Source: a virus. Taken from it: DNA of 28,421 nt. The notes beneath the pieces are model-generated. The model saw nothing but the letters and a program-made list of their open reading frames with translations, was not told where the DNA came from and ran no database searches. Of the stretch, positions 1 to 28,421 are shown piece after piece. Location: positions 1 to 28,421 of the IMG/VR virus record IMGVR_UViG_3300023049_000003. The stretch is one strand, 5' to 3'. The translations under genes were made by a program, and so were the position numbers. The first letter of the stretch is position 1; each line of letters begins with the position of its first letter.

Positions 1-127
1 TGAGATAATAAATAATTGAACCCGTTTTGCTTGACCACCCCATGTTTTCCTGAATAGGTACCACAGAGATGAGTTGCCACCCATTTGAGCCCAGTGTGTT
101 GAGCATTTCATCAGTAGCGTCAGCGTC
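1..127. repeat. 127-bp terminal repeat, left copy (assembly overlap)
   Basis: Bases 1-127 are identical to 28295-28421. Removing one copy lets the gene that starts at 190 continue in frame through the join to a stop at 28278-28280. This shows a circular (or circularly permuted) molecule of 28,294 bp. The length 127 is a typical maximum k-mer of short-read assemblers, so the repeat most likely comes from assembly rather than being a physical phage end. Confidence 0.95.
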
Positions 128-190
128 GATTGTTTTTTTTGTGAACCCTTTTGTCATTCGAGGGGTTGCTGTCATGTATTCGTATTTCAT
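1..190 (-). CDS. DUF4177-like small protein (runs through the contig join)
   Basis: The ATG is at 188-190. The frame is open to the left edge and, after removal of the duplicated 127 bases, continues from 28294 to a TAA at 28278-28280, giving 68 residues. The protein begins MKYEYMTATP and has the core LNTLGSNGWQLISVVP followed by a YYLMR end. This pattern (N-terminal YEY, central GW-L-SV, C-terminal YYL-R strand) is typical of the small DUF4177 domain, whose function is unknown. It follows the gene ending at 193 by two bases and precedes the SSB-like gene by 13 bases, so it is co-transcribed with both. A gene caller would probably miss or truncate it because the contig was opened inside it. 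The family assignment rests on motif memory only. Confidence 0.8.
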   Translation of the reverse strand, partial: MKYEYMTATPRMTKGFTKKTIDADATDEMLNTLGSNGWQLISVVPIQENMGWSSKTGSIIYYL

Positions 191-192
191 GA

Positions 193-414
193 CTAGAATT
201 CGTCATTGAGACGGTCGTCTCTCTCAATATCAAGTGCAAGCTCTCTCAAGATTGCAGGGAATTCATGAGACCCGATGCCGTAGGGGTTTGCTAGTCCTCG
301 AACAAGGTCGATGATTTGTTGCTTGAATTGTAGATAATAATTGTCGTCAATGTTGATTTCAAAGTCTCGAGTGACTGTGAATTTGTCTGTACATTTTTCT
401 GTGTTTTTTGCCAT
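193..414 (-). CDS. hypothetical protein, 73 aa
   Basis: I do not recognise this small soluble protein (MAKNTEKCTDKFTV...). It has a beta-like N-terminal half and an amphipathic, acidic C-terminal helix that ends in DDRLNDEF. There are no membrane segments, and the single cysteine argues against zinc binding. The ATG at 412-414 is preceded on the coding strand by CTAATCAAACACACT, the A/C-rich box found before many starts in this genome; there is no Shine-Dalgarno. It sits between a small zinc-finger protein and the DUF4177-like gene at the end of the recombination module. Confidence 0.75.
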   Translation of the reverse strand: MAKNTEKCTDKFTVTRDFEINIDDNYYLQFKQQIIDLVRGLANPYGIGSHEFPAILRELALDIERDDRLNDEF

Positions 415-425
415 AGTGTGTTTGA

Positions 426-608
426 TTAGGTTTTTGTAATTTGAGCAGTGAGTTTCACTTTTCTTGTGTACCCGTTCGGGTGCCAGTTTTGATTGAGTCC
501 TTTTTCAAAGTCAGCAACCATTCTGAGAATCGTGACACATAGAGTGCAATTTTCACTGTATTGATTTGATGTAGGTGCATTGCACGATTCGCACTTTCGC
601 ACCGCCAT
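426..608 (-). CDS. small zinc-finger-like protein, 60 aa
   Basis: The reading frame is open further upstream, but the ATG at 606-608 (MAVRKCESCNAPTSN) lies two bases after the stop of the nuclease gene and begins directly before the zinc motif, so I chose it. Four cysteines are arranged as CESC and, 12 residues later, CTLC, which suggests a single zinc ribbon. The remainder is a short helix and a basic C-terminus. A role in nucleic-acid binding next to the recombination nuclease is inference only. Confidence 0.7.
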   Translation of the reverse strand: MAVRKCESCNAPTSNQYSENCTLCVTILRMVADFEKGLNQNWHPNGYTRKVKLTAQITKT

Positions 609-609
609 A

Positions 610-1449
610 CTATTTGAGAGTTTTAGCGATGACAGGGTCGATTCGGTGAACATCGAGCAATGCTTTGAAAGCCTTGAATGATGTCACCAGTTCGCCACGA
701 CTCACTGTGTGCGTCATGTATGAACCTGCCTTGCGAATAATGTTGTCATCTTTGTCGGTGATGTCATCTTTTGTGAAGTTCACAATTTTTGCACCGGCGA
801 CCTTTTTGCCTGTCATTTCCTCATACGCTTTCATGTATGCAGCGATTTGATACACCTGCGAAGTATAAACACCCTTTGATGTTTTATAATCTACGATGTA
901 GAGTTCACCGCCAATTTCAGCGAGAGCATCACAGATTCCGACATAATTCCACCGCTTTGAATACACTTTGAATTCGTTTGAGATGAATGTCGGTGACATG
1001 ATTTTTTTCCATTCGTTGAATGCGTCGACCCCTTGCTGTGCAAGTTTTTTGTCCTCGTCTGAGAGCTCAGCGAATTGTTCAACCTCGTTGATGTCTGAGC
1101 GGTTATGCTCAGCGAAGTCATGAACCACTGACCCCACGTCGGCAGCCTCTTGTTTGCGTTCGTTGTACGCACCTTTTGAGATTTTCAACATTGCGAGCAC
1201 ATCATCTTTTGTGAAGTTTGCACCGTCACGCATGTGAGCAATCATTGTTTCCTCAAAAGTGTTCACAGCCCACGACATGAGCGGTCGTGATTTGTCGAGC
1301 TTGTTCACCACCGATGAGGGTGATGCGAGCCATTCCTTTTTTTCAACACCGTCAACACTGATGAGCTTGTATCGGTGTGATGTCGGGTAGAAGTCGATGA
1401 CAACAGATTCATCGTAGAGCGTGAATCGCTCAGTGATTGTTTTTGCCAT
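610..1449 (-). CDS. PD-(D/E)XK nuclease (RecB/Cas4-like), 279 aa
   Basis: The motifs of the PD-(D/E)XK exonuclease superfamily appear in order: GSVVHDFAEH with His110, GICDALAEIGG with Asp174, IVDYKTSK with Asp187 and Lys189, and QIAAY at about 201-205. This is the arrangement of RecB-like and Cas4-like phage nucleases that process DNA ends with Mg2+. Length is normal for a one-domain enzyme. The start ATG at 1449 almost touches the stop of the Sak4-like ATPase at 1451, so the two are translated as a pair. With the ATPase and the SSB-like protein it forms a recombination module, probably generating single-stranded ends for annealing or helping to process replication intermediates. The superfamily is secure from the motifs; the exact substrate is not. 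Confidence 0.88.
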   Translation of the reverse strand: MAKTITERFTLYDESVVIDFYPTSHRYKLISVDGVEKKEWLASPSSVVNKLDKSRPLMSWAVNTFEETMIAHMRDGANFTKDDVLAMLKISKGAYNERKQEAADVGSVVHDFAEHNRSDINEVEQFAELSDEDKKLAQQGVDAFNEWKKIMSPTFISNEFKVYSKRWNYVGICDALAEIGGELYIVDYKTSKGVYTSQVYQIAAYMKAYEEMTGKKVAGAKIVNFTKDDITDKDDNIIRKAGSYMTHTVSRGELVTSFKAFKALLDVHRIDPVIAKTLK

Positions 1450-1450
1450 A

Positions 1451-2422
1451 TTATTTTGCAGCCTCAGCGAGGGCAGTTGAGATTCTGATAATCAATTCGG
1501 TTTTTGTACCTCCGACAGTCAAATTCATTTCCTTTGCCTTTGCAACGAGTTGAGCTGCTGTCATGTCTCCGAGTTCGAGCTCTTGAGAGCCGTTCTCAGC
1601 GTCCTTTGTCGTTGAATCGACTGTTGTATCAGATTCAGCGGGTACGCTTGATGCAGGGGTGTTTTCGCTAGTTTCAGCAGGTGTTTTCGGCTCATCTGTG
1701 CCTGCTGTCTTGTCAGTTTCGGTGTTTCCGAGCTGATTTGCAATATAGTTGTAGTCGGGCTTGATATATTTCCCGAGTTTCCCTGTTCGGTCTTTTGAGA
1801 CTCGTGATTCGTCAGACGGGTCGAGGAATAGTACACGCTTTGATTCACTCTCTCCGGTCTCTTTGTTTTTTCCGGTAGTTGTTCCCATGTAGGCAACAAT
1901 GTCGACCATTGTGATGAGTTCGTCTGAGAGCTTTGTTGCAATCATCGGTCGTCGCACGATAGTTTCACCGTCAGTCTTTTCATCGACGTGAGCAACAATA
2001 ACGATATTCTTGTCGGTGTCCCTCAGCCATTTCACGAAGTTTCGCATTTTCTTTTTCACTTCACCCCACCCTGCAATCGTCAAGTCGCCTGAGCCACCTT
2101 GTCGGTATTTTGCCCCGTTGATTGATTGTGATTCCATGAGCTTTTGCATTGCCTCTCCGATAGGGTCGACAATGATTGTGTCATAATTTGCGATTGCAGC
2201 TTTGAGCTGAGTGAAGTCCTCCTGTGTGAACCAGTCTTTTTGTTGTGCAACGTCCACAGAGATGCCACGTTCTCCGAAGTATTTTGCACCGTTTTCAAAG
2301 TCAATGAGTAATGGTTTCGGGAATGATGCCGCAAAAGTTGTTTTTCCGACTCCTCCCATTCCGTAGACAATCATCATGATAGATGCGTTTTTCGGATATT
2401 TTGATGTGTTAGTAATTTGCAT
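1451..2422 (-). CDS. Sak4-like RecA-core ATPase with C-terminal SAP domain, 323 aa
   Basis: Starting at the ATG at 2420-2422 (MQITNTSKYP), a Walker A loop GMGGVGKTT lies at residues 21-29 and a Walker B strand DTIIVDP at about 81-87. IVIVAHVDE and a KLSDELITMVD segment follow. This is the layout of the phage AAA_24/Sak4 family of RecA-like ATPases that work with phage SSBs in recombination. After a low-complexity T/E/P/S linker, the last 40 residues (DMTAAQLVAKAKEM... KTELIIRI) form a SAP-like helix-extension-helix DNA-binding motif, which is not part of the basic family as I know it. The longer frame to 2467 was rejected because it runs over the previous gene, and because the ATG at 2422 carries the CTACACACCATT start box. 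The next gene is the nuclease. Confidence 0.85.
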   Translation of the reverse strand: MQITNTSKYPKNASIMMIVYGMGGVGKTTFAASFPKPLLIDFENGAKYFGERGISVDVAQQKDWFTQEDFTQLKAAIANYDTIIVDPIGEAMQKLMESQSINGAKYRQGGSGDLTIAGWGEVKKKMRNFVKWLRDTDKNIVIVAHVDEKTDGETIVRRPMIATKLSDELITMVDIVAYMGTTTGKNKETGESESKRVLFLDPSDESRVSKDRTGKLGKYIKPDYNYIANQLGNTETDKTAGTDEPKTPAETSENTPASSVPAESDTTVDSTTKDAENGSQELELGDMTAAQLVAKAKEMNLTVGGTKTELIIRISTALAEAAK

Positions 2423-2435
2423 AATGGTGTGTAGA

Positions 2436-2717
2436 TTATGAGCGAGATTCCGGTCGCCCGAATGCAATCATATGTGATGCAGTGAAAGCGAATGAATCGT
2501 TGCTCTGTTTGTAATACTCGTACTTGATTGAGCCGTCAGACTCGACGTGTGCACGAACCGTCTTTTTTGTGGGTGCTGAGTCGAATACCACTTTGATTTT
2601 TCCCTCGACTAAAAGGTCGAAAGGCTCTTTGCGATATACATGACCCATGTCTCGCACCGCATAGCCTGATTGCCACAGCTTTTTTTTGACTATGCTTTTT
2701 TTATCGTTTTTGGTCAT
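2436..2717 (-). CDS. hypothetical basic protein, 93 aa; weak nuclease-fold resemblance
   Basis: The N-terminus is lysine-rich (MTKNDKKSIVKKKLWQSGYA), followed by alternating strands around FDLLVEGKIKVVFDSAP and ending HMIAFGRPESRS. The pattern of a helix, FDLL, then a strand resembles small PD-(D/E)XK folds, but the second acidic-x-Lys pair is absent (VVFDSAP), so an active nuclease is not supported. It is the first gene after a strong promoter whose -10 box ends 8 bases before the ATG, so its mRNA would have almost no leader. It heads the transcription unit of the ATPase and nuclease genes. Function unknown. Confidence 0.7.
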   Translation of the reverse strand: MTKNDKKSIVKKKLWQSGYAVRDMGHVYRKEPFDLLVEGKIKVVFDSAPTKKTVRAHVESDGSIKYEYYKQSNDSFAFTASHMIAFGRPESRS

Positions 2718-2725
2718 GTGATTTC

Positions 2726-2754
2726 ATTATAAATGATTTATGATGAAAGTACAA
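2726..2754 (-). promoter_or_regulatory. sigma70-type promoter with overlapping palindrome (copy 1)
   Basis: On the minus strand the -35 box TTGTAC (2749-2754) and the -10 box TATAAT (2726-2731) are separated by 17 bp. A near-palindrome, ATCATAA-5-TTATAAT on the coding strand (2726-2744), covers the spacer and the -10. A near-identical promoter occurs at 4309-4337. The predicted start of transcription falls at or within about two bases of the ATG at 2717. Confidence 0.75.
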
Positions 2755-2786
2755 TGAACCGACTGTGAATCTTGTGTGCATAAGTG

Positions 2787-3161
2787 CTATTGATTCGATG
2801 CTATAAGTCGCAAGACTGCATCACCATAGGCACATGAATCATACGGCACGCCGTATTTATTGACCCCGCTTGAACACGTCACCGTGCCACCGTTCCACAC
2901 ATGAGCAATTTGTCGCTCACTGAACCCTCTGTCTAGTAATTGCTGAATCTTGAGAATTGCCACAGTTTCCTCGTTTTTGCAGGTCTGTTCCGGTATCTCT
3001 TTGAGCATCTGTTTTGCATAGATGTTCCACGTTGCCGGCATGAATTGATATGCCCCGTTTTCGCCTGAAAGTCCCTCAGCGTTGCAGTTGCCTCGACTCT
3101 CATGTTCCTTGATAGCGAATGCTATTCGTTGAGCGTCGGGGCTGACCCGAAAGACACCAGT
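2787..3161 (-). CDS. lytic transglycosylase domain without a canonical start codon
   Basis: The open frame between a TGA (3162-3164) and a TAG (2787-2789) holds a nearly complete SLT-type lytic transglycosylase domain. It reads IAFAIKEHESRGNC with the catalytic Glu at frame residue 21, then GENGAYQFMPATWNIY. These enzymes cleave glycan strands of peptidoglycan. The only ATG (3039-3041) starts inside the QFMPATW motif and would lose the catalytic glutamate. There is no ATG, GTG or TTG before the domain. The upstream gene (3122-3523, membrane anchor plus coiled coil) overlaps this frame by about 40 bases in the frame one base off. A fused membrane-anchored enzyme made by a -1 frameshift, reinitiation on ATA (which overlaps the upstream TAG), or an assembly indel are the alternatives. 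Domain identity is good; expression is unresolved. Confidence 0.7.
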   Translation of the reverse strand, partial: TGVFRVSPDAQRIAFAIKEHESRGNCNAEGLSGENGAYQFMPATWNIYAKQMLKEIPEQTCKNEETVAILKIQQLLDRGFSERQIAHVWNGGTVTCSSGVNKYGVPYDSCAYGDAVLRLIASNQ

Positions 3162-3523
3162 TCATGTCTCACGTTTTCAAGTTCAGAATCGAGCCCTGCT
3201 TTTTCAGCGTCGAGGTCGGCAATGATTTGTGCACGTCGTGCAGCAAGTTCATCACGTTGCTCGTTGATGTAGATTTCCTCAGCGAGCAATGATTGCTGTT
3301 TTTGGAATTCTGCACGAGTCATGATTTTTTCAAGAGCATTCTGTTTTTCTTTATCGACAGGGCTCTCGTCTTTGATGACTGTTGTTGATTCGGTCTCCAC
3401 CTCATAGGTCGTCGAGAGCATATCGTTTTTGCTTGCAAAGAATGCAGCGTATGCGATGAGCCCGAGAATGACGATGATGAATAGATTTCGCCCGAATTTT
3501 GATTTTTGTTTGTTACGTTTCAT
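3122..3523 (-). CDS. membrane-anchored coiled-coil protein, 133 aa
   Basis: A basic N-terminus (MKRNKQKSKFGRN) is followed by one transmembrane helix (LFIIVILGLIAYAAFFA, about residues 14-30). A long charged helix rich in Glu, Ala and Arg follows (about 65-125) and looks like a coiled coil. The orientation should be N-terminus inside, with the coiled coil outside the membrane. Its last codons overlap the start of the transglycosylase frame, so it may be the membrane anchor and spacer of one split enzyme. On its own it could act as a spanin- or anchor-like protein. It is the third-last gene of a small run of membrane proteins behind the promoter at 4309-4337. Confidence 0.75.
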   Translation of the reverse strand: MKRNKQKSKFGRNLFIIVILGLIAYAAFFASKNDMLSTTYEVETESTTVIKDESPVDKEKQNALEKIMTRAEFQKQQSLLAEEIYINEQRDELAARRAQIIADLDAEKAGLDSELENVRHELVSFGSAPTLNE

Positions 3524-3532
3524 ATAGAATGA

Positions 3533-3775
3533 TTAGCGTATAATCTCACCGTCAACACCTCGAACCGGTGCATCGACCTCGATGCCTATTGAGTCACACA
3601 TTGTGTCCTCAGATTCGGTGATGTAAAAGCCTCGATACTCTTGAGATTGATTTTGCAGTTTGATGCAAGTCACCTCAGATTGCTTGTTGAGACCTGTGAG
3701 CATGGCAAAGAATAAGATTGCGATTGCCACTAGTGCGAGCACTATACTCACACAATTTTGAATGATTTTTGTCAT
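3533..3775 (-). CDS. small membrane protein with two conserved-looking cysteines, 80 aa
   Basis: One N-terminal transmembrane helix (about residues 8-27, IVLALVAIAILFFAML) is followed by a short exported domain, TCIKLQNQSQEYRGF, and then MCDSIGIEVDAPV. The two cysteines (in VTCIK and TMCDS) frame this domain and could form a disulfide outside the cytoplasm. I do not recognise the family. It lies between a zinc protein and the coiled-coil membrane protein, in the same operon as the transglycosylase, so an envelope role is likely. Confidence 0.7.
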   Translation of the reverse strand: MTKIIQNCVSIVLALVAIAILFFAMLTGLNKQSEVTCIKLQNQSQEYRGFYITESEDTMCDSIGIEVDAPVRGVDGEIIR

Positions 3776-3776
3776 A

Positions 3777-4088: not shown

Positions 4089-4092
4089 TGTT

Positions 4093-4300: not shown

Positions 4301-4308
4301 TGTTTTAT

Positions 4309-4507: not shown

Positions 4508-5380
4508 TTAGAATGTAGTCACGACCACAAGTCCGTCACCACCTGCACCTGAGTTTTGATTGTTCTCATTTCCACCTCCACCTCCTGCGGGGGTTTGACC
4601 AGTCTCAGCACCACCTGTTGCGTTTCCATTTCCACCATTTCCACCGACTATTGATTGCCCCCCTGTTACTGATGAACCTGTACCACCACCACCACCTCCT
4701 CCGAAGTAGCTATCACCTGCGGGTGAATAGGTTGCGTTTCCATACCCTGAACCACCACCTGCTGAATAGATACCGTTAGTATCTCCAAGTGTTCCGTCTG
4801 AGTTTTGACCATTACCAAAAAAGCCTATAAGACCATATTTGTTGTCCCCCGAATCACCACCTGATGTGTTTGACCCGCCTCCGACTTGACCGACTCCGTC
4901 CCATGAACCACCACCACCACCTGAGCCGTTGTTCGCGCTATTACCTTGACCACCACCTCCTCCTCCATAGGCTTCAAGAAGTGAGCCGAGTGATGATTTT
5001 CCACCCGCTAGACCGTTTTGACCGTTTGAGGTACGGGCTGCACCACCCTCACCGACAGTCACTGATTCTGTTGCTGAAAGGTCGTCAGCCGAAAACATAA
5101 ACTCATTATATGAACCACCACCACCACCTCCCGCATCACCTGTATTTCGTCCACCTGAACCACCGCCACCCCACATTTGAACAAGCACACGGGTTGCACC
5201 GTCTGGTTTCGTCCATGTTCCTGATGACGTAAATTCTTGAACGTCAGTCGAGGGTTCGTTGAATGATTTGTCGATTTTTCCGCTTGCCTTTGTCACAGGA
5301 ATTTTTCCTGCTGAACCGTCTGATGAATCGTGAAAGTCTGATGCTTTGACGACTGTTCCTGCTGTTTTTGCTTGTGCCAT
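4508..5380 (-). CDS. glycine-rich tail adhesin / receptor-binding protein, 290 aa
   Basis: The N-terminal region (MAQAKTAGTVVKASDF to about residue 50) looks like a tail-attachment part. It is followed by the FTSSGTWTKPDGATRVLVQMW strand motif, shared by many phage glycine-rich adhesins. Long poly-glycine stretches then make up most of residues 70-280, ending GGDGLVVVTTF. In known adhesins of this type, glycine runs pack as polyglycine-II helices and the loops between them contact the receptor. It is the last gene of the tail operon, as expected for the host-recognition protein, and is followed by a terminator. The host-range loops are probably the Ser/Asn/Tyr-rich segments between glycine runs. 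Confidence 0.85.
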   Translation of the reverse strand: MAQAKTAGTVVKASDFHDSSDGSAGKIPVTKASGKIDKSFNEPSTDVQEFTSSGTWTKPDGATRVLVQMWGGGGSGGRNTGDAGGGGGGSYNEFMFSADDLSATESVTVGEGGAARTSNGQNGLAGGKSSLGSLLEAYGGGGGGQGNSANNGSGGGGGSWDGVGQVGGGSNTSGGDSGDNKYGLIGFFGNGQNSDGTLGDTNGIYSAGGGSGYGNATYSPAGDSYFGGGGGGGTGSSVTGGQSIVGGNGGNGNATGGAETGQTPAGGGGGNENNQNSGAGGDGLVVVTTF

Positions 5381-5881: not shown

Positions 5882-6151
5882 TTAGCCTTTGATTGAATGA
5901 GTGACCTCAGCCTTTTCGAGTTTTCTGACAGTCTTGATTTCATCATCGACTTCGTCTCTCTTTTTCTGCATTCTCTCGATGTCTCTATCAATTTGTCGAC
6001 GTTTTTGTCGCATCTCTTTGGTGTCGAGCTTTTTCTTTTTGACAATAACATCAGAGCTGTTGTCGAGCACTTTTTCCGTCACTCGAATCACCTCCTTTTC
6101 AGTAGGTTTCAGCGGGTTCGTTTGTGTGATGTAGGTGATTGTTTTTTTCAT
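5882..6151 (-). CDS. charged coiled-coil protein in the tail module, 89 aa
   Basis: MKKTITYITQTNPLKPTEKE is followed by a long, highly charged helix (about residues 35-80: KKKKLDTKEMRQKRRQIDRD and IERMQKKRDEVDDEI), very likely a coiled coil. A structural linker or folding helper for the neighbouring tail proteins is plausible but unproven. Its start lies exactly 6 bases after an extended -10 box, so a separate leaderless mRNA is predicted in addition to read-through from the hub gene. Confidence 0.7.
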   Translation of the reverse strand: MKKTITYITQTNPLKPTEKEVIRVTEKVLDNSSDVIVKKKKLDTKEMRQKRRQIDRDIERMQKKRDEVDDEIKTVRKLEKAEVTHSIKG

Positions 6152-13040: not shown

Positions 13041-13457
13041 TTATTCGTCGTCAGTTGAATCATCTGAGTCATCGTTTGCTTGTTCAGCAAGTCGAATTCT
13101 CTCAATGATTGCAGCCTTGTTTCCCGATGTAGGAAGTTCAAGAGCTTTTGCCTTTGCTTTCAGCTCGTCAGATGACATGTCGTCAAGACCGTCGCCTGAT
13201 TCGTCGTCAGCATCGTCATCGCTTGAATCATTGTCTGATGTATCGTCGGCATCACCTGAAAGCGATTCTGTCGCAGTAGGTTCACCGTTCACTGAGTTGA
13301 TGAATCTCTCATCAGTCAATTCAGCATCAGTCTTTTCAATCATTGAACCGTATCGCTTTGCCTCGATTGCAGTCAATGCAATCACAGTGCCTTTTGATAC
13401 ACGTCCTTTCGCAGTTGCGATTGCTCGCAGTGTGATGAATTTTAGAATTTTAGCCAT
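13041..13457 (-). CDS. acidic head-region protein with C-terminal SAP domain, 138 aa
   Basis: Starting at the ATG 13455-13457 (MAKILKFITLRAIATAKGRV), a small SH3-like beta region (residues about 4-42, ending AKRYGSMIEKT) resembles accessory proteins encoded next to capsid genes. A long D/S/E-rich linker follows. A SAP-like helix-extension-helix is then seen, DMSSDELKAKAKALELPTSG, continuing NKAAIIERIRLAEQ, before an acidic tail. SAP motifs usually bind DNA; here one sits in a virion-module protein. The start carries the CTACACATCAAA box. The upstream ATG at 13514 was rejected because it places unlikely sequence before a good start. Confidence 0.75.
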   Translation of the reverse strand: MAKILKFITLRAIATAKGRVSKGTVIALTAIEAKRYGSMIEKTDAELTDERFINSVNGEPTATESLSGDADDTSDNDSSDDDADDESGDGLDDMSSDELKAKAKALELPTSGNKAAIIERIRLAEQANDDSDDSTDDE

Positions 13458-13529
13458 TTTGATGTGTAGGTTATCGAGTAATAGTTGAGCGTACACCCTC
13501 GACGATGAGCACAATGTTTCATGTTCATT

Positions 13530-15841: not shown

Positions 15842-16126
15842 TTATTTTTGACTGTCAGCCTTGAGCAGTTTGAGCAATTCCTCACTCGACGTGTCGACGG
15901 TCTTTTCAGAGCCCCCGATTTTACGAGCAACACTGTCAACGGTTCCGATACCTGCGACAGTGATGAGCCATAGCTTGATAATCTCAAGCATTTCAGCCAT
16001 TCCACCGCCCCCGATATTAGCCTCGAGAATTGCGACGATTGCGGTCAATGTAACAACCCAGAATCTCACAGACCCGAACAGGTCTTTGAGTTTGTCAATG
16101 ATTGTTTTTGTAGTTGCATTTGTCAT
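15842..16126 (-). CDS. holin-like small membrane protein, 94 aa
   Basis: Two hydrophobic segments (about residues 21-38, RFWVVTLTAIVAILEANI, and about 48-62, IIKLWLITVAGIGTVDS) are separated by a GGGG turn and followed by a charged C-terminal tail. Size, two-helix topology, and position directly after the endolysin gene suggest a holin. It has its own extended -10 promoter exactly 6 bases before the ATG, predicting a leaderless mRNA and separate timing, which would suit a lysis clock. Other small membrane proteins nearby (17482, 18323) are rival holin candidates. Confidence 0.68.
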   Translation of the reverse strand: MTNATTKTIIDKLKDLFGSVRFWVVTLTAIVAILEANIGGGGMAEMLEIIKLWLITVAGIGTVDSVARKIGGSEKTVDTSSEELLKLLKADSQK

Positions 16127-18607: not shown

Positions 18608-18885
18608 ACATTGTTTTTCTTTATAACCTCGATGAGTTCACGAACAGCTCTCTCAACCCCTTTGAGGTGATAGTGCGTCTTGCGTGCGATTGCACTTTCG
18701 TTCTCTCGAGATTGAGTGCTTTGTTCGACTAGCGAATTGCACACATTGTCACCGATAACCGGCTTTGCTTGTAATGTTCTCAGACGTTCGACCACCGCCT
18801 CCTTTACGAGAGCAGCTTTGTCTGAGCTGATTGATGCCCCTGATAATACGAGCATGATGTTTTGTTGAATTTCATTATTTGTCAT
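18604..18885 (-). CDS. helical protein downstream of the portal, 93 aa
   Basis: The ATG at 18883-18885 (MTNNEIQQNIMLVLSGASIS) overlaps the end of the portal gene by 11 bases; a second ATG in frame lies two codons earlier (18891). The protein is mostly helical, ending LKGVERAVRELIEVIKKNNV. There are no membrane segments. It could be a small cytoplasmic regulator or structural helper. Family unknown. Confidence 0.68.
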   Translation of the reverse strand: MTNNEIQQNIMLVLSGASISSDKAALVKEAVVERLRTLQAKPVIGDNVCNSLVEQSTQSRENESAIARKTHYHLKGVERAVRELIEVIKKNNV

Positions 18886-21073
18886 GGTCATTATTTTCAA
18901 GTGTTTCGAGTACCTTTGTCAGCAGCTCGACCTCACCGACACCCTTTGTGTCGACAATTTCCTGAGCCTTGCCGTAGTCAATCTCACCGGCAACGATTGT
19001 GCACCGGCATCGAGGGTGCAGTGGTGCCCACGGTAGGTCTAGGAATGCAGTTGCTGATGATGAGCCTGTGATTTCCTCACCCTCTTTGTAAAAGGTTGAC
19101 TCGACAGCGATTTCTTTTCCTTGCAGTGGGTAGCACATAGGGCACACACGCTCGTCTTGAGCTGTGTACCATTTCTTTGTTTTCACCACTCCCGATTGAA
19201 CAAAAGCATCGTTTGTCGCTTGATTCGAGATGTCGAATGTCACAGTCTTTGCCATAAGTTCAGCACGAACCTTGTCAGTGTATTCATACACCTCATTGAT
19301 TCGCTTTTCGATTTGAACAACATTCTCACCCTCACTGATTCCCTCTTTGATTGTGTCATTGAGTGCAGCAATGGTTGTGTCTGTGTAGCTTTGAGCAGTA
19401 GCACCGACATATTTGTCGAACCGTTCCTGAGTTGCGTCAGCTGTCACATCGAATGAGACAATCGGGTTCACTGTCATGATTGTTGCCTCACCCTCCTTTT
19501 GCAAGAGTTCGGTCAATGCAGGTGACATGAGTTCGATTGTGAGGTTCATTTCATCGCTCTTGTTGAGCACATTCAGTGCTTTCTTTGTGTCGATACCTTT
19601 TTTATCTTTGATGTTCTCTCGTGCCCATTTTCGAGCTCTGCGTGCCTGTTGGGCATTGAATTCAATCAAGTCAGCTGTGAGTTGTTCCTCATACGGCTCA
19701 ACACGGTTCACTTTCTTTTCCCACGCCTTGTTGTGTTCCTCGTCCTCGTCATCAGTGAAGTCTTTGACCACGATGTTGCTATTCTTGAAAATATCAGCAA
19801 GGTTGTCAGCGAGGTTTTCTTTTGATGCCACTGATGAGCGTTTGATTCTCATTTTCTTTTTGAATGTGTTTGCTTTTTTCTCTTTTCCGATTGATAGAGT
19901 TCCGAATGGGTTTGATTGTGGAATCTCGTCACCGTCCTCAACGGGTGCAAGCCCTGAGCGTTCACGAGCCTCATTGAGAGTCATGAATGCTGCACCACCT
20001 GTTCCGGCTTTGATAGTTTCAAGTTCATGAGTTTTGTCATCGGGCACGATTGAATCGAAGTCGAGATATAGAGCACCGGTCGGGTCTAGGTCTTTGACGA
20101 CTGTATTGTTCAACCATTCAACGAATCGTCTCATTTTAGGTTCAAGAGTAAAGAATGCGAATGAGTAGTTTTTCGCCTCAGCATCAGCACGAGACATTCC
20201 ACTCTCAGTGATTCCGAGAATAGATTTCGGCACACCGAATGCAGCGAGAATCTTGTCACGATATGTTGCATCAAGAGTTGCGAATTCCATGTCACGCATT
20301 GTTGACCCACCTTTTGCGAGTTTTGTTTTGTTCGGCAAGATAGCCGCATTGTGAGCATTGCTCATTCCTCGATGTTTCATTTCCCACCCCTTGCGAATCA
20401 GCTCAATTTCCTCTCGAGTAGTTGCCTCAGTTTCAAGCACGTCACCCACTGATGCACCATTTTCAAAGAATGACCGATTGAATTCAGTTGCGAATGATTC
20501 AACATCTATCCAGTCAGCAATCTTTTCAGCAACACCCACTCCGATGAATGGGTTTGAAAGGTTCGGGTATCGGTAGTGATACATTTCGTCAGCCGGCACA
20601 TTGATTTTGCCACCTGTATTTGTTCGCACTTCATAGGCAGATATAGAAAGACCGTCAGCAGCCGTTTTGACTGTGACGTTTGTCGGAGGTATAGGAATCA
20701 GTTTGCCGTCCACCTTTCGCCAGTAGGCGTTCCCGATGAGTTCAGCATGACCATGAGCTTGATATTGCAATTCACGACCGTCAAGAAAGTCATTCGGTTC
20801 AGAAAGTATGTCGAGAATAGCATGAGAGAAAAGTTGCTCATCAGCTTTGTCGTCAGCAGTTTGTTTCATGAGCTTGAGTTCAATTCCTGAGAGTGATGAG
20901 GCGATTGTATCGACACACACATAGACCCAGTTTTTGTTTGCACTCATCAATGCTTTTGCACTTGAATCAGCACGACCGAGTGAAAAAGGTGACCATGTCT
21001 GATTGTTGAAAATATCACCGGCAGCTTTGACGCTTGATGAAAAGATTGTTTTGATGTTTGATAGTATTGACAT
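18875..21073 (-). CDS. portal protein fused to a MuF-like minor head domain, 732 aa
   Basis: The N-terminal about 400 residues are an HK97-type portal: WSPFSLGRADSSAKALMSAN, NWVYVCVDTIASSLSG, and an FGVPKSILGI segment followed by GMSRADAEAKNYSF. A charged linker (about 405-470) leads to a Mu gpF-like domain. It ends KKWYTAQDERVCPMCYPLQG (Cys644, Cys647), then LPWAPLHPRCRCTIVAG (His686, Cys689, Cys691), a probable zinc site. Normally portal and gpF are separate adjacent genes. Here one chain would put a MuF domain on each of 12 portal subunits. I chose the ATG at 21071-21073 (MSILSNIKTI) over 21115, which overlaps terL. An extended -10 box lies 19 bases upstream. Confidence 0.9.
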   Translation of the reverse strand: MSILSNIKTIFSSSVKAAGDIFNNQTWSPFSLGRADSSAKALMSANKNWVYVCVDTIASSLSGIELKLMKQTADDKADEQLFSHAILDILSEPNDFLDGRELQYQAHGHAELIGNAYWRKVDGKLIPIPPTNVTVKTAADGLSISAYEVRTNTGGKINVPADEMYHYRYPNLSNPFIGVGVAEKIADWIDVESFATEFNRSFFENGASVGDVLETEATTREEIELIRKGWEMKHRGMSNAHNAAILPNKTKLAKGGSTMRDMEFATLDATYRDKILAAFGVPKSILGITESGMSRADAEAKNYSFAFFTLEPKMRRFVEWLNNTVVKDLDPTGALYLDFDSIVPDDKTHELETIKAGTGGAAFMTLNEARERSGLAPVEDGDEIPQSNPFGTLSIGKEKKANTFKKKMRIKRSSVASKENLADNLADIFKNSNIVVKDFTDDEDEEHNKAWEKKVNRVEPYEEQLTADLIEFNAQQARRARKWARENIKDKKGIDTKKALNVLNKSDEMNLTIELMSPALTELLQKEGEATIMTVNPIVSFDVTADATQERFDKYVGATAQSYTDTTIAALNDTIKEGISEGENVVQIEKRINEVYEYTDKVRAELMAKTVTFDISNQATNDAFVQSGVVKTKKWYTAQDERVCPMCYPLQGKEIAVESTFYKEGEEITGSSSATAFLDLPWAPLHPRCRCTIVAGEIDYGKAQEIVDTKGVGEVELLTKVLETLENNDHDK

Positions 21074-21092
21074 ATATGTTTTAGCTAAAATT

Positions 21093-21101
21093 ATTATAAC
21101 A
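21093..21101 (-). promoter_or_regulatory. extended -10 promoter before the portal gene
   Basis: The minus strand reads TGTTATAAT (TG-N-TATAAT) 19 bases before the portal ATG, preceded by AAAATC as at 6158-6166. It lies in the short terL-portal gap and could start a second late transcript for portal and envelope genes. Confidence 0.6.
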
Positions 21102-21105
21102 GATT

Positions 21106-22482
21106 TTATATCCACATGGGTGCGAGTATTCCACCCTCAGTTGGTTTTTGGAATGTGAGAGCCAGTGCATCGCCGACGTTTGGTGATTTCACACCACGCT
21201 TTGCCATGTCGTCCTTGCTCTCGAGTTGTACTTGACCCTTTGATGTCAGCTTGTATTTCGGTGCAGCGAGTTCGTACCAGTCTTTGTGTTCCTCTAGTAT
21301 CGCATCTCTGAGCCATTCACGCATCACTTGCCACCCCTCAGCACGCAGGTTCAAGAATTGTTCTTTGTCTTGAGCTGCCACTGCGACGTTCACACCCTCG
21401 ACACGGTCACTGAATTTCGGTTGCTCTCTGAGTCTGTCGAATGTTCCGGCACCGAGTCCGATGATGTCGATTCTCAGTCTCGCATTCGGGAATTCTTTGA
21501 GATACTTGATTGATTTTCCTGCGAGCACCATTGTGTCAGTTTTCTCAATCGTCTCGAGCACCTTTGCAAAATTCCCTTTTCGATAGATGAATGCAGCCAT
21601 GTCGTGACCTTTCCTTGAGGGGTCAAGTCCGATGAATTCCTCCTCGCCGTATTCCTCACGTTCAGCATCAATCGCACTCTCAACGAGGTCGAATGAGATG
21701 AGGGTGTCAGTGTCTTTTTTCGGGAATTCTCCGAGCACACGCACACGGTACACGTCAGAGTCCTCACCATACTTTGTTTTCACGTCCTCTATCCATTCCT
21801 TTGTGACGAGTCCATGAATCACTGTCTCACCTGCAATCACGTTCGGTGTATCGAATGCACTGATGTGAATTTTGTTGTAGAGCGGTGATGAGAATGAATC
21901 AAAGAAGTCACCTGACGGCTTTGTGGGGTTTCCTATTTCAACGAGCCGTGAGCCCTCGCCTATCATTCCACCCTCGATTGCCTCTTTGACAGGTCGACCC
22001 ACACCTGACGATTCATCAATCACAAAGAGAATGTTCGGGCTGTGCCACCCTTGCATCGACTCCATTCCTGCGTCACCGTCTTTTGTTGCCACTCCGATTG
22101 CATACCAGTCATCAGCGAATTCAAGCTCTGTCTGTTTCACATATCCACCGAGATTTGTTTTCGCATGAGCATGAGAGCGTTTGATGTTTTTCCACAGTTG
22201 ATTTTTCACCTGCTTGAAAGTGGGTGCAGTTGTCACCACAATGCACGGTGCATACGCAAAGAGATACCACAGCACAGCATCACCCATGACCTTTGTTTTT
22301 CCTGCTGAGTTACAAGAGCGAACCGTGGTGCGTTTATGGTCACGAATAGACTCAACAATCTCGAGCTGCTTTTCCCACAATGTCACTCCGAGAGTTTTCT
22401 CGAAAAAGAGTGTCGGGTCAGCTTTGATGTTCTCTTGATATTCAGTGCCAACATGTTTTGTATTATCTTGAGTGTTTTGCAT
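21106..22482 (-). CDS. terL: terminase large subunit, 458 aa
   Basis: The ATPase part has Walker A RSCNSAGKT (residues 55-63) and Walker B ILFVIDE (151-157) with the catalytic Glu. The nuclease part has FIGLDPSRKGHD (Asp287), RLRIDIIGLGAG (Asp339) and SPNVGDALAL (Asp438), the three acidic residues of the RNase-H-like packaging nuclease. This enzyme pumps DNA into proheads and cuts it. The start ATG 22480-22482 (MQNTQDNTKH) overlaps the small terminase gene by 20 bases; the upstream ATG at 22527 would overlap more and adds unlike sequence. The fold class suggests headful or cos cutting cannot be decided from sequence alone; the circular assembly fits headful or cos equally. Confidence 0.95.
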   Translation of the reverse strand: MQNTQDNTKHVGTEYQENIKADPTLFFEKTLGVTLWEKQLEIVESIRDHKRTTVRSCNSAGKTKVMGDAVLWYLFAYAPCIVVTTAPTFKQVKNQLWKNIKRSHAHAKTNLGGYVKQTELEFADDWYAIGVATKDGDAGMESMQGWHSPNILFVIDESSGVGRPVKEAIEGGMIGEGSRLVEIGNPTKPSGDFFDSFSSPLYNKIHISAFDTPNVIAGETVIHGLVTKEWIEDVKTKYGEDSDVYRVRVLGEFPKKDTDTLISFDLVESAIDAEREEYGEEEFIGLDPSRKGHDMAAFIYRKGNFAKVLETIEKTDTMVLAGKSIKYLKEFPNARLRIDIIGLGAGTFDRLREQPKFSDRVEGVNVAVAAQDKEQFLNLRAEGWQVMREWLRDAILEEHKDWYELAAPKYKLTSKGQVQLESKDDMAKRGVKSPNVGDALALTFQKPTEGGILAPMWI

Positions 22483-24618: not shown

Positions 24619-25043
24619 ACGCTCATTTTTTTAGTCAGCTCTGATACTCCCTCAATCTCGACCCGCTTGATTTCCAGTTGAGGCACATCGACACCTTTGC
24701 CGATGAGATTCTGTTGCTTGTTTTCAATAAAGTGTGTGACTCGTGCCTGAATCATATTCGGCACGCCCTGATATTTTTTCATGATTCCTTTCGATTCAGC
24801 CTCACGATAATCGTCGGGGCTTGAGCCGAATTTGTAGTCGTCATTGTACCCGAGGTCACCGCCATAGTGGGGTGTGATGTCGAATACCTTTGAGACCGGT
24901 CGACCGTTGATGATTGTTTTCCCGTCAAAGAGAAAAACAAAATATGCTTTTTCAACCTCCACCTCGTCACAGATGACGAATGTGTGAGGGTTGAACCCTG
25001 TCACGACTTTGAATTGATATTTTTTTTGTGGTGTGTTGTTCAT
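24615..25043 (-). CDS. hypothetical protein, 142 aa
   Basis: MNNTPQKKYQFKVVTGFNPH is followed by a beta-rich middle (VEVEKAYFVFLFDGKTIING, HYGGDLGYNDDYKFG) and a helix-strand end (PQLEIKRVEIEGVSELTKKM). There are no cysteines in pairs and no membrane segments. The start ATG at 25043 follows CTAACACAACACACC, a clear A/C start box. It lies between the replisome organizer and the AP2 protein, so a DNA-replication accessory role is possible, without direct support. Confidence 0.72.
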   Translation of the reverse strand: MNNTPQKKYQFKVVTGFNPHTFVICDEVEVEKAYFVFLFDGKTIINGRPVSKVFDITPHYGGDLGYNDDYKFGSSPDDYREAESKGIMKKYQGVPNMIQARVTHFIENKQQNLIGKGVDVPQLEIKRVEIEGVSELTKKMSV

Positions 25044-25054
25044 GGTGTGTTGTG

Positions 25055-25918
25055 TTAGAGAATCACCTTGCTCGTCTTTTCAGTGAGCTCAGTTTTCTTG
25101 CGAATAAAAGCATTTGATAATGAGTCCCATTTATCAGCGAGCTGATGAGGGGTTGTGATTTGAGGGAAGTACGGCAGCACGTTTGATTGAGGTAGCAGGT
25201 TGACGACTTTCATCACTTGCTCGAATGAATGAGCTTTGATGAGATGCTCAATCGCTGAGCGTTGAGTCTTGTTGCCATACCACCGAGAGTGAGCCGAGTT
25301 CACGACTACAAAAGCATCAATGATGTCGATGATTTCCTGATTCTTTTTTTTTGATTCAGCATCATCTTTTTCCGCATCGTCAGATGCAATACTACTCTTA
25401 TCTATACTAGTCTTATCTATACTACGGCAACCAGTGGTCGCCATTTGGTTGCCAGACTCCTTTGAGCCTTTGTTTTCAACGTCTTTTGATGATTTAGACG
25501 TTTTTTTCTTTTTTTTTGGTGCCTTGATTTGTTGGTTGCCATTTGGTTGCCGAATGGTTGCCATGTCGTACGAATCATTTTCAGTGTACGACCCATTTTC
25601 CTTGACCTCGAGCATCTTGAATTCATCTTGATACGCTGTCGGTTTGTGCCGGTCTTTTCTGAGTGTGTTGTGCATTCGCCAGTGTTTGACGACACACACT
25701 CCATTCTGAAAAGGAATCATGAACCTTTTTGCGATGAGAATTTTGAGGTCATCGTCGGCAGCCCCTATCATTCGCATGATTCTTTTGATGCTTGAGACGA
25801 ACCCGTCATCGTCTGCTCTCACATTGCTGTGAAAGTAGAGATTTTGTGCTGATGTGGGCATGTCGAGAAAAGCATCACTGTCGACAATGTCCATTGTGAA
25901 CATTCTTTTATTTGCCAT
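25055..25918 (-). CDS. phage replisome organizer (DnaD-like initiator), 287 aa
   Basis: The first 100 residues match the phage replisome organizer N-terminal domain: MFTMDIVDSDAFLDMPTSAQ, VRADDDGFVSS, IGAADDDLKILI, HWRMHNTLRKDRH. This winged-helix domain binds origin repeats. A Lys/Ser-rich linker (about 105-195) contains SIDKTSIDKSSI. A C-terminal DnaD/DnaB_2-like helical domain follows (IIDAFVVVNSAHSRWYGNKT, LPYFPQITTPHQLADKWDSL) and should recruit the host helicase loader. Direct repeats inside the linker's coding sequence (25426-25562) look like the binding sites, as in origins of lactococcal phages and lambda O. A long structured leader precedes the gene, with a start box AACACACCAACT. 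Confidence 0.88.
   Translation of the reverse strand: MANKRMFTMDIVDSDAFLDMPTSAQNLYFHSNVRADDDGFVSSIKRIMRMIGAADDDLKILIAKRFMIPFQNGVCVVKHWRMHNTLRKDRHKPTAYQDEFKMLEVKENGSYTENDSYDMATIRQPNGNQQIKAPKKKKKTSKSSKDVENKGSKESGNQMATTGCRSIDKTSIDKSSIASDDAEKDDAESKKKNQEIIDIIDAFVVVNSAHSRWYGNKTQRSAIEHLIKAHSFEQVMKVVNLLPQSNVLPYFPQITTPHQLADKWDSLSNAFIRKKTELTEKTSKVIL
25396..25424. repeat. 14-bp tandem direct repeat
   Basis: TCTTATCTATACTA occurs at 25396-25409 and again at 25411-25424 (period 15). It encodes the SIDKT/SIDKS linker of the initiator and lies next to the iteron-like cluster, so it may be part of the origin or simply protein repeat expansion. Confidence 0.7.
25426..25562. repeat. iteron-like repeats, probable replication origin
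   Basis: TGGTTGCC occurs at 25533, 25544 and 25555, spaced exactly 11 bp, and again at 25446; a variant TGGTCGCC lies at 25435, also 11 bp away. An inverted copy GGCAACCA is at 25426-25433. Between the two clusters runs a T7CT9 tract (25501-25518 region), which could melt easily. Phased 11-bp repeats, inside the initiator gene, with an A/T tract, form the pattern of an initiator-binding origin. Confidence 0.75.
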
Positions 25919-25964
25919 AGTTGGTGTGTTGTTATGGTGCTGATAATGAGCTCGAGTTTTCTGA

Positions 25965-26032
25965 TTGACTGATTCATTGCCCCTTGTAAGTGCAATGACC
26001 CAGTCAACGAGTACAAGGGTCGAGCGTCCCTT
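25965..26032 (-). promoter_or_regulatory. structured leader of the initiator mRNA with alternative pairings
   Basis: On the coding strand TTGACTGGGTCATTGC (26007-25992) pairs with GCAATGAATCAGTCAA (25980-25965): 14 Watson-Crick pairs, one G-U and one mismatch, around an 11-base loop. The loop ends TACAAGGG, which is fully complementary to CCCTTGTA (26019-26012) just upstream. The CCCTT part can also pair with AAGGG at 26032-26028. These pairings compete, suggesting a switch or a partial pseudoknot. Confidence 0.7.
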
Positions 26033-26034
26033 TT

Positions 26035-26043
26035 ATTATATCA
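26035..26043 (-). promoter_or_regulatory. extended -10 promoter of the initiator gene
   Basis: TGATATAAT on the minus strand (TG-N-TATAAT) overlaps the stop codon of the RusA-like gene. The expected start of transcription is near 26028, giving a leader of about 110 bases before the initiator ATG at 25918. No clear -35 box. Confidence 0.6.
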
Positions 26044-26466
26044 TGAATCAGTTTGCTTGATGTTGTGAGGTTCGACAAGTTGTGCATTTCCTGTGAATAT
26101 CTCGACAACACAATGTGCCTCCTCATCTTTTTTGCATTTCCGGCAGCCCTGCATTGTATAACTGACGTATTTGTTCGAGTCATCGGGCATCAACCCGCCG
26201 TGCACGAACCCGTCCTCAATCATCTTGACCATTGCTGAGAGATTTGATGAATCGAGCAGATTGCCTTTGAGGGCGAATGTGTATTTGATAACGACAGGGA
26301 ATTCAGCAATCTCAAATTCAATGTCCTCGAGTGCCTCTTGTGCTGCGTAGTAGTACGACTCATGCAGTGGTGACCGTGATTTGTAGTGCATTCGGTAGTA
26401 CGCATTTGTGCTCACTTTTTCATGAATAATGACTTTGATGTGGTCGTCGTTTATTTTCTGAATCAC
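26041..26466 (-). CDS. RusA-like Holliday-junction resolvase, 141 aa
   Basis: The key segment KGNLLDSSNLSAMVKMIEDG, followed by GGLMPDDSNKY, matches the RusA signature (D-x-x-N-L...D-G...DD). Asp72, Asp85 and Asp95/96 are the likely metal-binding residues. RusA enzymes cut four-way junctions formed in recombination and replication, and clear branched DNA before packaging. The C-terminus adds three cysteines (CRKCKKDEEAHC, 108-119), perhaps a small zinc site not found in typical RusA. Length is close to the family's 120-140. The start overlaps the upstream stop by four bases. Confidence 0.84.
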   Translation of the reverse strand: MIQKINDDHIKVIIHEKVSTNAYYRMHYKSRSPLHESYYYAAQEALEDIEFEIAEFPVVIKYTFALKGNLLDSSNLSAMVKMIEDGFVHGGLMPDDSNKYVSYTMQGCRKCKKDEEAHCVVEIFTGNAQLVEPHNIKQTDS

Positions 26467-26810
26467 AAGCCGATTTGTTTACGGCTTTTTTTATAGAGAG
26501 ACTCGAGACTAGGGAATGGCACATGAATTCCTGCACCGGCGACATACCGATTGAATGTCTCATATACAGCATCAATGTGAGCCCCCGCATTTTCAGTTGA
26601 CTCGATTCCTGTTTGCTCAATCTGAGCTGCACGCCATATTTCTTTGATGTGTTTTGTCTGAACAGGTACATGCACAGCAGGGAATTCAGTCAGTAATTTG
26701 TGCAGGTCATATCCTGCATTTTCGTATTCTTTTGCCACGAATGCGAACAGTAAGTGCATCGCTTTTCGTTGTTGGTCTGAGATTTGTTTCATCTCTTTTT
26801 TTTCTGTCAT
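26463..26810 (-). CDS. phage protein of a recurrent but unnamed family, 115 aa
   Basis: The pattern QQRKAMHLLFAFVAKEYENA, GYDLHKLL, a WRAAQIEQTGIESTEN segment, and VYETFNRYVAGAGIHVPFPS recurs, as I remember it, in replication modules of many phages without an assigned function. The N-terminal QQRKAMH and C-terminal HVPFPS ends are its hallmarks. It overlaps the RusA-like gene start (ATGA), and so is made in equal amounts, suggesting a role in DNA recombination or replication. Confidence 0.72.
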   Translation of the reverse strand: MTEKKEMKQISDQQRKAMHLLFAFVAKEYENAGYDLHKLLTEFPAVHVPVQTKHIKEIWRAAQIEQTGIESTENAGAHIDAVYETFNRYVAGAGIHVPFPSLESLYKKSRKQIGL

Positions 26811-27034
26811 ATTTCTTTGAGAATTAGTGTCGGCTGATTGAACAATTCCTCAGTGCCGTGATTGTAGAATGTTGTTATCTCTTGATAGTCGGTCATGCCT
26901 TGTGGGGGTTCAGCATCAATGATTGAGCTGTGATTGACTCTCAGTGAGAGACCCACAGTGCGTTGAGTTTGCAACATATCCGGCACATCGAGGTATGTGA
27001 TACCGCCGTGCTTGTAATGTAGTTTTGCGAGCAT
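26807..27034 (-). CDS. hypothetical protein, 75 aa
   Basis: The protein starts MLAKLHYKHGGITYLDVPDM and ends PTLILKEI, with no known motif, membrane helix or zinc site. It looks like a small beta-rich domain. Its stop overlaps the next start as ATGA, and its own ATG at 27034 follows AACACAACAAGCGT, a variant of the A/C-rich box. Function unknown. Confidence 0.68.
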   Translation of the reverse strand: MLAKLHYKHGGITYLDVPDMLQTQRTVGLSLRVNHSSIIDAEPPQGMTDYQEITTFYNHGTEELFNQPTLILKEI

Positions 27035-27048
27035 ACGCTTGTTGTGTT

Positions 27049-27513
27049 TTAGATTTCCGATGCACGAATGACTCGACCTGATTCGATAGTGAACCCGAGA
27101 CCTTGCCAGTATGGTGCATTTTTTCCGAGTAATTTTTTGAGAGTTGTTTTTCCCTCTTTTTCAATGTGCCCGACAGTTCGCTTTGTTGCTTTTTCAACAG
27201 CGGCGACTTTCCATATTTCAGACCCATTCAAGAAGTCGACACCTTTTCGAGTGAGTACCCAGTTGCCGTGTGATTCATGCTTTGCCACGAGACCGTGGTC
27301 GCCGAGCACTGTCATGTTCACTCGTTGAGCCACCGAAAAGAGTCCGAGTTTGAAAAGTTCTTTTTCGGGGTGCACTACATTCACGCCTTTTTTCTCGATA
27401 AATTCTGAGATGATGACAAGCATCTTTGCATATCCTTTTGATAGCACAGCGGGTTTGTAGAGTCTTTGTGAGCAGCATTCGCACCGCTCGTCGATTTTGT
27501 TTGTTTCAGTCAT
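27049..27513 (-). CDS. zinc-finger / winged-helix-like protein, 154 aa
   Basis: Starting at the ATG 27511-27513 (MTETNKIDERCECCSQRLYK), a CxCC zinc-like start is followed by helices and a segment GDHGLVAKHESHGNWVLTRK, GVDFLNGSEIWK. The phrase G-W-LT-KG-xFL is typical of winged-helix-like phage proteins of unknown role. The frame extends to 27537, but the chosen ATG carries AATCAACACACC, the best start-box match. A DNA-binding or regulatory role in the early operon is plausible. Confidence 0.72.
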   Translation of the reverse strand: MTETNKIDERCECCSQRLYKPAVLSKGYAKMLVIISEFIEKKGVNVVHPEKELFKLGLFSVAQRVNMTVLGDHGLVAKHESHGNWVLTRKGVDFLNGSEIWKVAAVEKATKRTVGHIEKEGKTTLKKLLGKNAPYWQGLGFTIESGRVIRASEI

Positions 27514-27602
27514 GGTGTGTTGATTGATTAGTCTCAAGAGCTGTGAGAGTGAGGCTGATGTTTCGGGTCATGTAGCACCCCGATTCGCTTGTCAGTATCA
27601 CT

Positions 27603-27622
27603 CACACAGCCCTCGAGCTGTG
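27603..27622. repeat. intergenic hairpin
   Basis: The coding strand ACACAGC-TCGAGG-GCTGTGT is a perfect 7-bp stem with 6-base loop, within the 116-base gap 27514-27629. No T-run follows on either strand. It may be an RNA processing or stability element between early genes. The rest of the gap holds only very short frames (see rejected items). Confidence 0.5.
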
Positions 27623-27629
27623 TTGATAA

Positions 27630-27863
27630 TTATTCCATACCGATGTGAGCTTTGATTGCTTTGAGTTCAGTGATGAGATTCACCATGATTTCAGAGCGTA
27701 GGCTGTCGGTCAGAATTCCGATGTAGTTTGCAATGATGAGCACTTTTTCAGCGTCCTCTTTGTTGTACGTCATCGGTGAATTCGGGAATGCGTATCGAAC
27801 CTCACCTTTTTTCTTGTCGAGGTCGATTTCTTTGAGGTCTTTGAGTGTGAATTGTTTTGACAT
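27630..27863 (-). CDS. hypothetical protein, 77 aa
   Basis: MSKQFTLKDLKEIDLDKKKG is followed by a YAFPNSPMTYNKEDAEKVLI segment and a C-terminal helix (LITELKAIKAHIG). The protein is soluble, charged and mostly helical, with no cysteines. No family is recognised. The ATG at 27863 is preceded by AATCAATCAAAC, a degenerate A/C box. It belongs to the early operon behind SSB. Confidence 0.72.
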   Translation of the reverse strand: MSKQFTLKDLKEIDLDKKKGEVRYAFPNSPMTYNKEDAEKVLIIANYIGILTDSLRSEIMVNLITELKAIKAHIGME

Positions 27864-27873
27864 GTTTGATTGA

Positions 27874-27969
27874 TTAGTCTTTGAATAATAGATGTAGTAT
27901 CACCCATGCAATGACCCACTGCCACGATGAGCCGGTAGCAAGAGCAATGATTGCGATGAATAAAAACAT
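27874..27969 (-). CDS. 31-residue hydrophobic protein
   Basis: The ATG at 27967-27969 gives MFLFIAIIALATGSSWQWVI followed by AWVILHLLFKD, nearly all hydrophobic: one long or two short membrane helices. It begins 5 bases after the SSB-like stop and ends 11 bases before the next start, so it fills the gap exactly, which supports a real mini-gene. It might affect the host membrane early in infection. Very short, so uncertain. Confidence 0.5.
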   Translation of the reverse strand: MFLFIAIIALATGSSWQWVIAWVILHLLFKD

Positions 27970-27973
27970 AAGC

Positions 27974-28264
27974 CTAGAAAGGAATGTCGTCGGGGTTGAT
28001 GTCCTCAGCAGGGTATTCAATCTCATTGCTGCTGTTGTTTTGAGCAGGTGCTGAGTTTGATTGACCTCCGGCATTGTTGTTTTTTTGTTCAGCCTCGAAC
28101 ACTGAGAATGTCAGACTGCTGTCATTCATCTCAATGATTCGTGAGATTGTTCCGTCCTCTTTGTGGAATTCAGTCATCGTTCCCACGTTTGCCCAGAAAG
28201 TTTTTTCCTCGTTGTTTGAGGTGTATTTTTTCGGGTTTGTGATGTTGTATCTTTTTACTTGCAT
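27974..28264 (-). CDS. single-stranded-DNA-binding-like protein, 96 aa
   Basis: Starting at the ATG 28262-28264 (MQVKRYNITNPKKYTSNNEE), a small beta-rich domain (KTFWANVGTMTEF, SRIIEMNDSSLTFSVFEA) is followed by a flexible Asn/Gln/Ser/Ala linker. The extreme C-terminus is NPDDIPF, the acidic-hydrophobic tip by which bacterial and phage SSBs recruit partner enzymes. The domain is shorter than a classical SSB OB fold. The frame to 28405 was rejected because it crosses the DUF4177-like gene and the ATG at 28264 has the CAACAACACACT box. It fits with the Sak4-like ATPase and PD-(D/E)XK nuclease at the other end of the file, which are close on the circle. Confidence 0.75.
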   Translation of the reverse strand: MQVKRYNITNPKKYTSNNEEKTFWANVGTMTEFHKEDGTISRIIEMNDSSLTFSVFEAEQKNNNAGGQSNSAPAQNNSSNEIEYPAEDINPDDIPF

Positions 28265-28277
28265 AGTGTGTTGTTGG

Positions 28278-28421
28278 TTAGGCGATTTCTCGCATGAGAT
28301 AATAAATAATTGAACCCGTTTTGCTTGACCACCCCATGTTTTCCTGAATAGGTACCACAGAGATGAGTTGCCACCCATTTGAGCCCAGTGTGTTGAGCAT
28401 TTCATCAGTAGCGTCAGCGTC
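28278..28421 (-). CDS. C-terminal part of the DUF4177-like gene (second copy at contig end)
   Basis: This is the last 47 codons and the stop (TAA, 28278-28280) of the gene that starts at 190. Bases 28295-28421 repeat bases 1-127. On the circular genome there is only one gene of 68 codons; the split is made by where the contig was opened. Confidence 0.85.
   Translation of the reverse strand, partial: DADATDEMLNTLGSNGWQLISVVPIQENMGWSSKTGSIIYYLMREIA
28295..28421. repeat. 127-bp terminal repeat, right copy (assembly overlap)
   Basis: Exact copy of bases 1-127. See the left copy: removing one gives a 28,294-bp circle with a continuous gene across the join. Confidence 0.95.

Follow-up and report, generated by a model that had tools for sequence, protein, structure and literature searches.

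Short DNA words of about 20 kinds are almost entirely missing from the phage genome analyzed here, several of these kinds from a single strand. The depletion concerns specific words, is independent of codon phase, is in part asymmetric between the strands, and differs between lineages among the relatives of this phage. We believe that the genome was probably reshaped by host restriction-modification, with a Type III-like (or Type ISP) strand bias added to a loss of Type II-like sites.

The window, that is, the whole stretch of DNA analyzed, is an IMG/VR record of 28,421 bases in which bases 1-127 recur at 28295-28421 (+ strand); this terminal repeat is the assembly overlap of a circular genome, so that the genome closes into a circle of 28,294 bp. 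All genes lie on the minus strand, in one direction. They encode a portal protein fused to a Mu F-like domain (18875-21115, - strand), which served as the query for finding relatives, a terminase large subunit (21106-22482, - strand) that is 92-94% identical to the relatives' copies, and a Sak4-like annealing protein (1451-2467, - strand), together with a head protease, a capsid protein, a tape measure protein and an Amidase_2 endolysin, as well as a PD-(D/E)XK exonuclease, a RusA-like resolvase, a DnaD-like helicase loader and HNH proteins. Among the window proteins scanned, none was recognized as a methylase, an anti-restriction protein or an integrase; no tRNA was found by a search of the window, and DNA nearly identical to it was absent from the phage collection. 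The window represents a complete siphophage, which is apparently lytic. A similar SAP-like C-terminal stretch was seen in two window proteins, the Sak4-like protein and the product of 13041-13514 (- strand); one of these stretches has a weak Pfam score, and the other was spotted by eye.

The original prediction was that GATC, TTAA and GGCC are missing from the whole window, and each indeed has a count of zero in the 28,421 bases. GCGC and CGCG occur once each, at a single place as had been stated; its position is 4932-4940 (+ strand, TTCGCGCTA) rather than 4928. The 11 other palindromic tetramers, said to be present, were all found, with 28 to 224 copies each. The numbers originally expected by chance (about 100 or more for GATC and TTAA, tens for GGCC) were too high for some words. 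As the main null model we used a synonymous codon shuffle within the genome (300 shuffles), which keeps the proteins, codon usage and the dinucleotides at codon junctions fixed. The genes are then expected to contain 72.7 GATC, 18.9 CGCG, 15.0 TTAA, 14.5 GCGC and 8.6 GGCC, and none of the 300 shuffles was as low as the window for any of the five words; the palindromes are therefore far below expectation even once codon and dinucleotide use are modeled. With a looser shuffle that preserves codon usage only, and pooling the phage family, every codon phase was empty or nearly so: expectations for a single phase reached 205 for GATC and 174 for TTAA, and every phase was empty for both.

Losses from both strands extend beyond palindromes and include the asymmetric words GGAGC, GAAGA, GAAGG, GGATG and CCAGC. 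A screen of 617 REBASE sites gave observed/expected counts of 0/96 for GGAGC, 1/77 for GAAGG, 1/72 for GGATG, 2/125 for GAAGA, 0/40 for ATCGAT, 0/37 for GRCGYC, 0/31 for CACGTG and 0/27 for ATGCAT, near-zero values thus spanning many unrelated specificities; the pooled counts of this screen include two nearly identical relatives, G001 and G002, separately. A greedy search, in which each word is masked before the next is sought, was applied to the window, G002 and a further relative, G004; at P<1e-8 it returned 23 words, of which 12 are avoided on both strands and 11 on one. For a list of 21 words, picked after the fact, the genes of the window contain 7 copies against 678 expected, and those of two relatives 10 against 671 and 5 against 725. 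The number of both-strand words in the family, 8 per genome at P<1e-6, is high and not extreme. Bipartite, Type I-like sites (AACNNNNNGTT, CYANNNNNNTTC and other gapped REBASE motifs) were considered as well and rejected, their signal vanishing upon masking of the contiguous words, after which none of the gapped motifs fell below 1e-6.

More unusual are the words missing from one strand only. Over the whole window, counts on the coding (minus) strand versus the other strand were 0:51 for AGTTC, 1:64 for AGTTG, 0:95 for GATTT, 0:53 for ATTTCB, 0:45 for CCTGA, 0:25 for CCTCT and 0:14 for CATTTG. Orientation counts were similar in G002 and G004, and also in the fragmentary relative G003, except for CCTGA (4:9). 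The orientation that is kept occurs at or near its expected count, and AGTTC, GATTT, CCTCT and CATTTG are each confined to one orientation genome-wide. Avoidance is narrowly targeted: the missing words are absent in all codon phases, and the single-base neighbors of six one-strand words have median observed/expected ratios of 0.74-1.31. A few minority sites are left over: the window has one AGTTG, G002 has one CCTGA and G003 four, so that facing pairs would remain if the five-base words are full sites. Of the 13 pooled one-strand words, 12 are missing in their rarer orientation, while rarer and commoner orientations stand at roughly 50:50 among eligible words; the 13 words partly overlap, and past avoidance may itself have lowered the expectation. 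For TTGG, GCAGA, GAAAGA and ACAGA, one-strand words of the greedy list, the commoner orientation was lost. The strand asymmetry of VTCC was examined as a mere effect of codon bias, an idea that was rejected as the asymmetry holds across codon junctions.

Four contigs encode close relatives of the window portal and terminase, and two of them are circularly complete, with an overlap of 127 bases as in the window. G001 and G002 are 99.97% identical and belong to the same species, which leaves three distinct relatives; G001 was dropped from pooled counts made after the REBASE screen. The window shares 79% DNA identity over aligned parts with G002 and likewise with G004, and G003 is a fragment of 4.8 kb. 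In all stretches of the relatives examined, GATC, TTAA, GGCC and GCGC have zero copies and CGCG at most one per stretch. The avoided set is thus shared by the family (L001-L004), and it also changes with lineage. CCGG occurs 46 times in the window versus 0 in the first-fetched stretches of the relatives, and once in the genes of full-length G002; GGAG stands at 76/94 in the window and at 5/47 and 0/48 in relatives; and GGAG and CGGA, avoided in one orientation in the window, are avoided in both orientations in the relatives. The shift in CCGG between such close relatives is what changing host enzymes would give.

In the explanation that we favor, two kinds of enzymes would have acted on these phages. 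Type II-like sites, which can be cut anywhere, would have disappeared from the two strands, mostly through synonymous substitutions; GATC, TTAA, GGCC, GCGC, CGCG, GGAGC, GAAGA, GAAGG, GGATG, CCAGC, ATCGAT and others are the candidates. Against enzymes that need two facing asymmetric sites (Type III, or Type ISP), the phage would have removed one orientation, usually the rarer. Indeed, such an enzyme is defeated by the loss of either orientation, and the rarer one would be the cheapest to remove. The proposed lost/kept pairs are AGTTC/GAACT, AGTTG/CAACT, GATTT/AAATC, CCTGA/TCAGG, CCTCT/AGAGG and CATTTG/CAAATG, and the parallel would be the escape of T7 from EcoP15I. Enzymes are the presumed cause here, of putative class and with putative exact sites, and the host or host population would carry many such systems. 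On balance, we lean towards the view that the lineage escapes at least five orientation-dependent (Type III-like) specificities at once, plus many Type II-like ones by site loss. The earlier proposal that restriction drove the loss of sites thus stands as the best explanation and survives the codon-shuffle control, but the four Type II specificities that it invoked are much too narrow, since both-strand avoidance extends to asymmetric words, and at least five groups of words are avoided on one strand only, the latter being unexplained by ordinary Type II enzymes.

Could the words have vanished through composition only, that is, through biases in codons, codon pairs and dinucleotides? Codon use is extreme, the serine codon TCC being used once among 530 serine codons in the window and 0-2 times in the relatives, and the TA and CC dinucleotides are scarce, which brings the expectations for TTAA and GGCC well under those first proposed. 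Nevertheless, shuffles that fix proteins, codon use and junction dinucleotides still predict the words, which are gone in every codon phase while their one-base neighbors stay near expectation, and L024, a distant Sak4 relative, displays no avoidance. Moreover, word avoidance seems to be at least part of the reason for the codon bias: ATC, GTC and CTC codons are also shunned before C, and the rarity of TCC is apparently a by-product of avoiding words that contain it. We therefore regard composition as a very improbable cause.

Two other readings accept restriction in part or change its agent. As every gene points the same way, the avoidance of each one-strand word is in the sense of the mRNA, and selection on the mRNA strand is inseparable here from selection on a single DNA strand; both-strand losses could then reflect restriction, and one-strand losses selection on mRNA by sequence-specific ribonucleases, from the host or from a defense system. 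This would require several ribonucleases of unrelated specificity, and it leaves the loss of the rarer orientation without a reason; a preference of this kind is not expected from selection on mRNA, and the 12 of 13 words accordingly speak for the Type III-like reading. The same signature is, in addition, found in T7, a phage in which the known cause acts at the DNA level. These points make the mRNA explanation unlikely, the orientation bias favoring the DNA level as an argument and not as a proof. Several enzyme families methylate asymmetric sites on one strand. The one-strand words could accordingly be targets of another orientation-sensitive defense (Type ISP, BREX or an unknown system methylating one strand) rather than of classical Type III enzymes, and for Type III sites, some words, such as AGTTS and ATTTCB, do seem short or degenerate. 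A strand bias arising from an orientation requirement is, however, best demonstrated for Type III enzymes (PMC3874151, PMC12707154), and we hold such a substitution to be improbable.

The avoidance pattern had also been proposed as a fingerprint that could identify the host, an aim that was not achieved, as genome searches found no host. The portal had no match in GTDB genomes, and a terminase profile run against 393 Saccharimonadia and 339 cyanobacterial genomes gave distant matches only; a search of 295 genomes of the class of G009, largely the same set, gave three of the same four matches. Among the four contigs concerned, GATC is absent from one and the full avoidance pattern is seen in none, and the two that are phage-like make clear use of Shine-Dalgarno sequences. 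One phage-like contig with a distant terminase, from a Saccharimonadia assembly (G287:C8), has 0 GATC for 51 expected. When 20 kb of the phage DNA was compared with Patescibacteria, only short, weak matches came up (best E 3.6e-6), many of them returning at a few positions, and none was convincing as a CRISPR spacer. Shine-Dalgarno sequences are missing in the phage family, GGAG being present in 0 and AGGA in 1 of 73 upstream regions. At a few genes, such as 15842-16126 and 5882-6151 (- strand), TATAAT lies six bases before the ATG, and these genes look leaderless. In four Saccharimonadia assemblies (small samples), 27-46% of long ORFs are preceded by a TAnnnT box at a distance of 4-8 bases, and in a further genome labeled Patescibacteria half of six ORFs have such a box. 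This resemblance is a lead only as to the host, profile and DNA searches having given no link to these groups.

To place these observations among known systems, the one-strand test was run blind on T7 and returned only CAGCAG (0 versus 33 in genes, 0:36 genome-wide). CAGCAG is the EcoP15I site, and the 36 copies in T7 all face the same way, which spares the phage from restriction (PMC3874151; PMC12707154). When the genes were picked by another method and the threshold was raised, CAGCAG was lost, no word was returned in the sense direction, and two other words appeared on the genomic strand; single words near the threshold are thus noise that depends on settings. Across 17 control sequences, 0-2 one-strand words were found, except in Geobacillus phage GBK2 with 4-7, compared to 8-13 in the phage family.

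Loss of palindromic sites and the T7 mechanism are known; several one-strand eliminations stacked within one family appear to be new in extent, and such stacking was, unlike the avoidance of restriction sites, not previously known. If our explanation is true, escape by strand bias, hitherto known chiefly from a single word in T7, would be a general anti-restriction strategy, one that phages can stack and that is legible in the sequence by itself. Run across all phage genomes, a test that retrieves the EcoP15I site from T7 could then predict Type III specificities of uncultured hosts, and the words listed above are concrete predictions for the methylome of the host of the window phage.

In their large phage survey, Rusinov et al. 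(2018) saw Type III sites avoided very rarely and Type I and IIG sites not at all; strand-asymmetric avoidance, which they looked for at the known Type I and III sites of hosts, was not systematic (PMC6286503). Like the dsDNA phages of that survey, the window has nearly lost its short palindromes and has no recognized integrase, but it has eliminated asymmetric and one-strand words too. The family suggests that the effect missed by the survey is real all the same, and that a motif-free test is required to see it, the enzymes being uncatalogued. Losses from both strands are matched elsewhere: Pseudomonas phage phiKMV and phage C72C1, with 12 and 9 both-strand greedy words (P<1e-6), have as many as the window, but 0 or 1 one-strand words. 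The 12 words of phiKMV are mostly 6 bp long, and several are palindromic. An otherwise unrelated 14 kb phage stretch (IMGVR 3300033149_003599) contains no CATG, CCGG, CGCG, GCGC or GTAC, and one TCGA.

GBK2 resembles the window in its several one-strand words, so that the pattern is not unique to the family, and stacked strand bias may exist outside it. GBK2 also avoids CCAG, GGACC and GATC; its one-strand words, which include GCCAC, ATTCCG, CAAATC and CATCAA, differ from those of the window, and it encodes a DNA methylase, of which none was recognized among the window proteins scanned. The two portals are 24% identical, and the phages are not otherwise close. With T7 the likeness is in the form of the loss: in both cases an asymmetric word is found in one orientation, the majority orientation being near expectation and the rarer one lost. 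The enzyme is known for T7 (EcoP15I), whereas the one-strand words of the window family are known from their sequences only, and the single such word of T7 compares with 8 to 13 minimal words per genome in the family.
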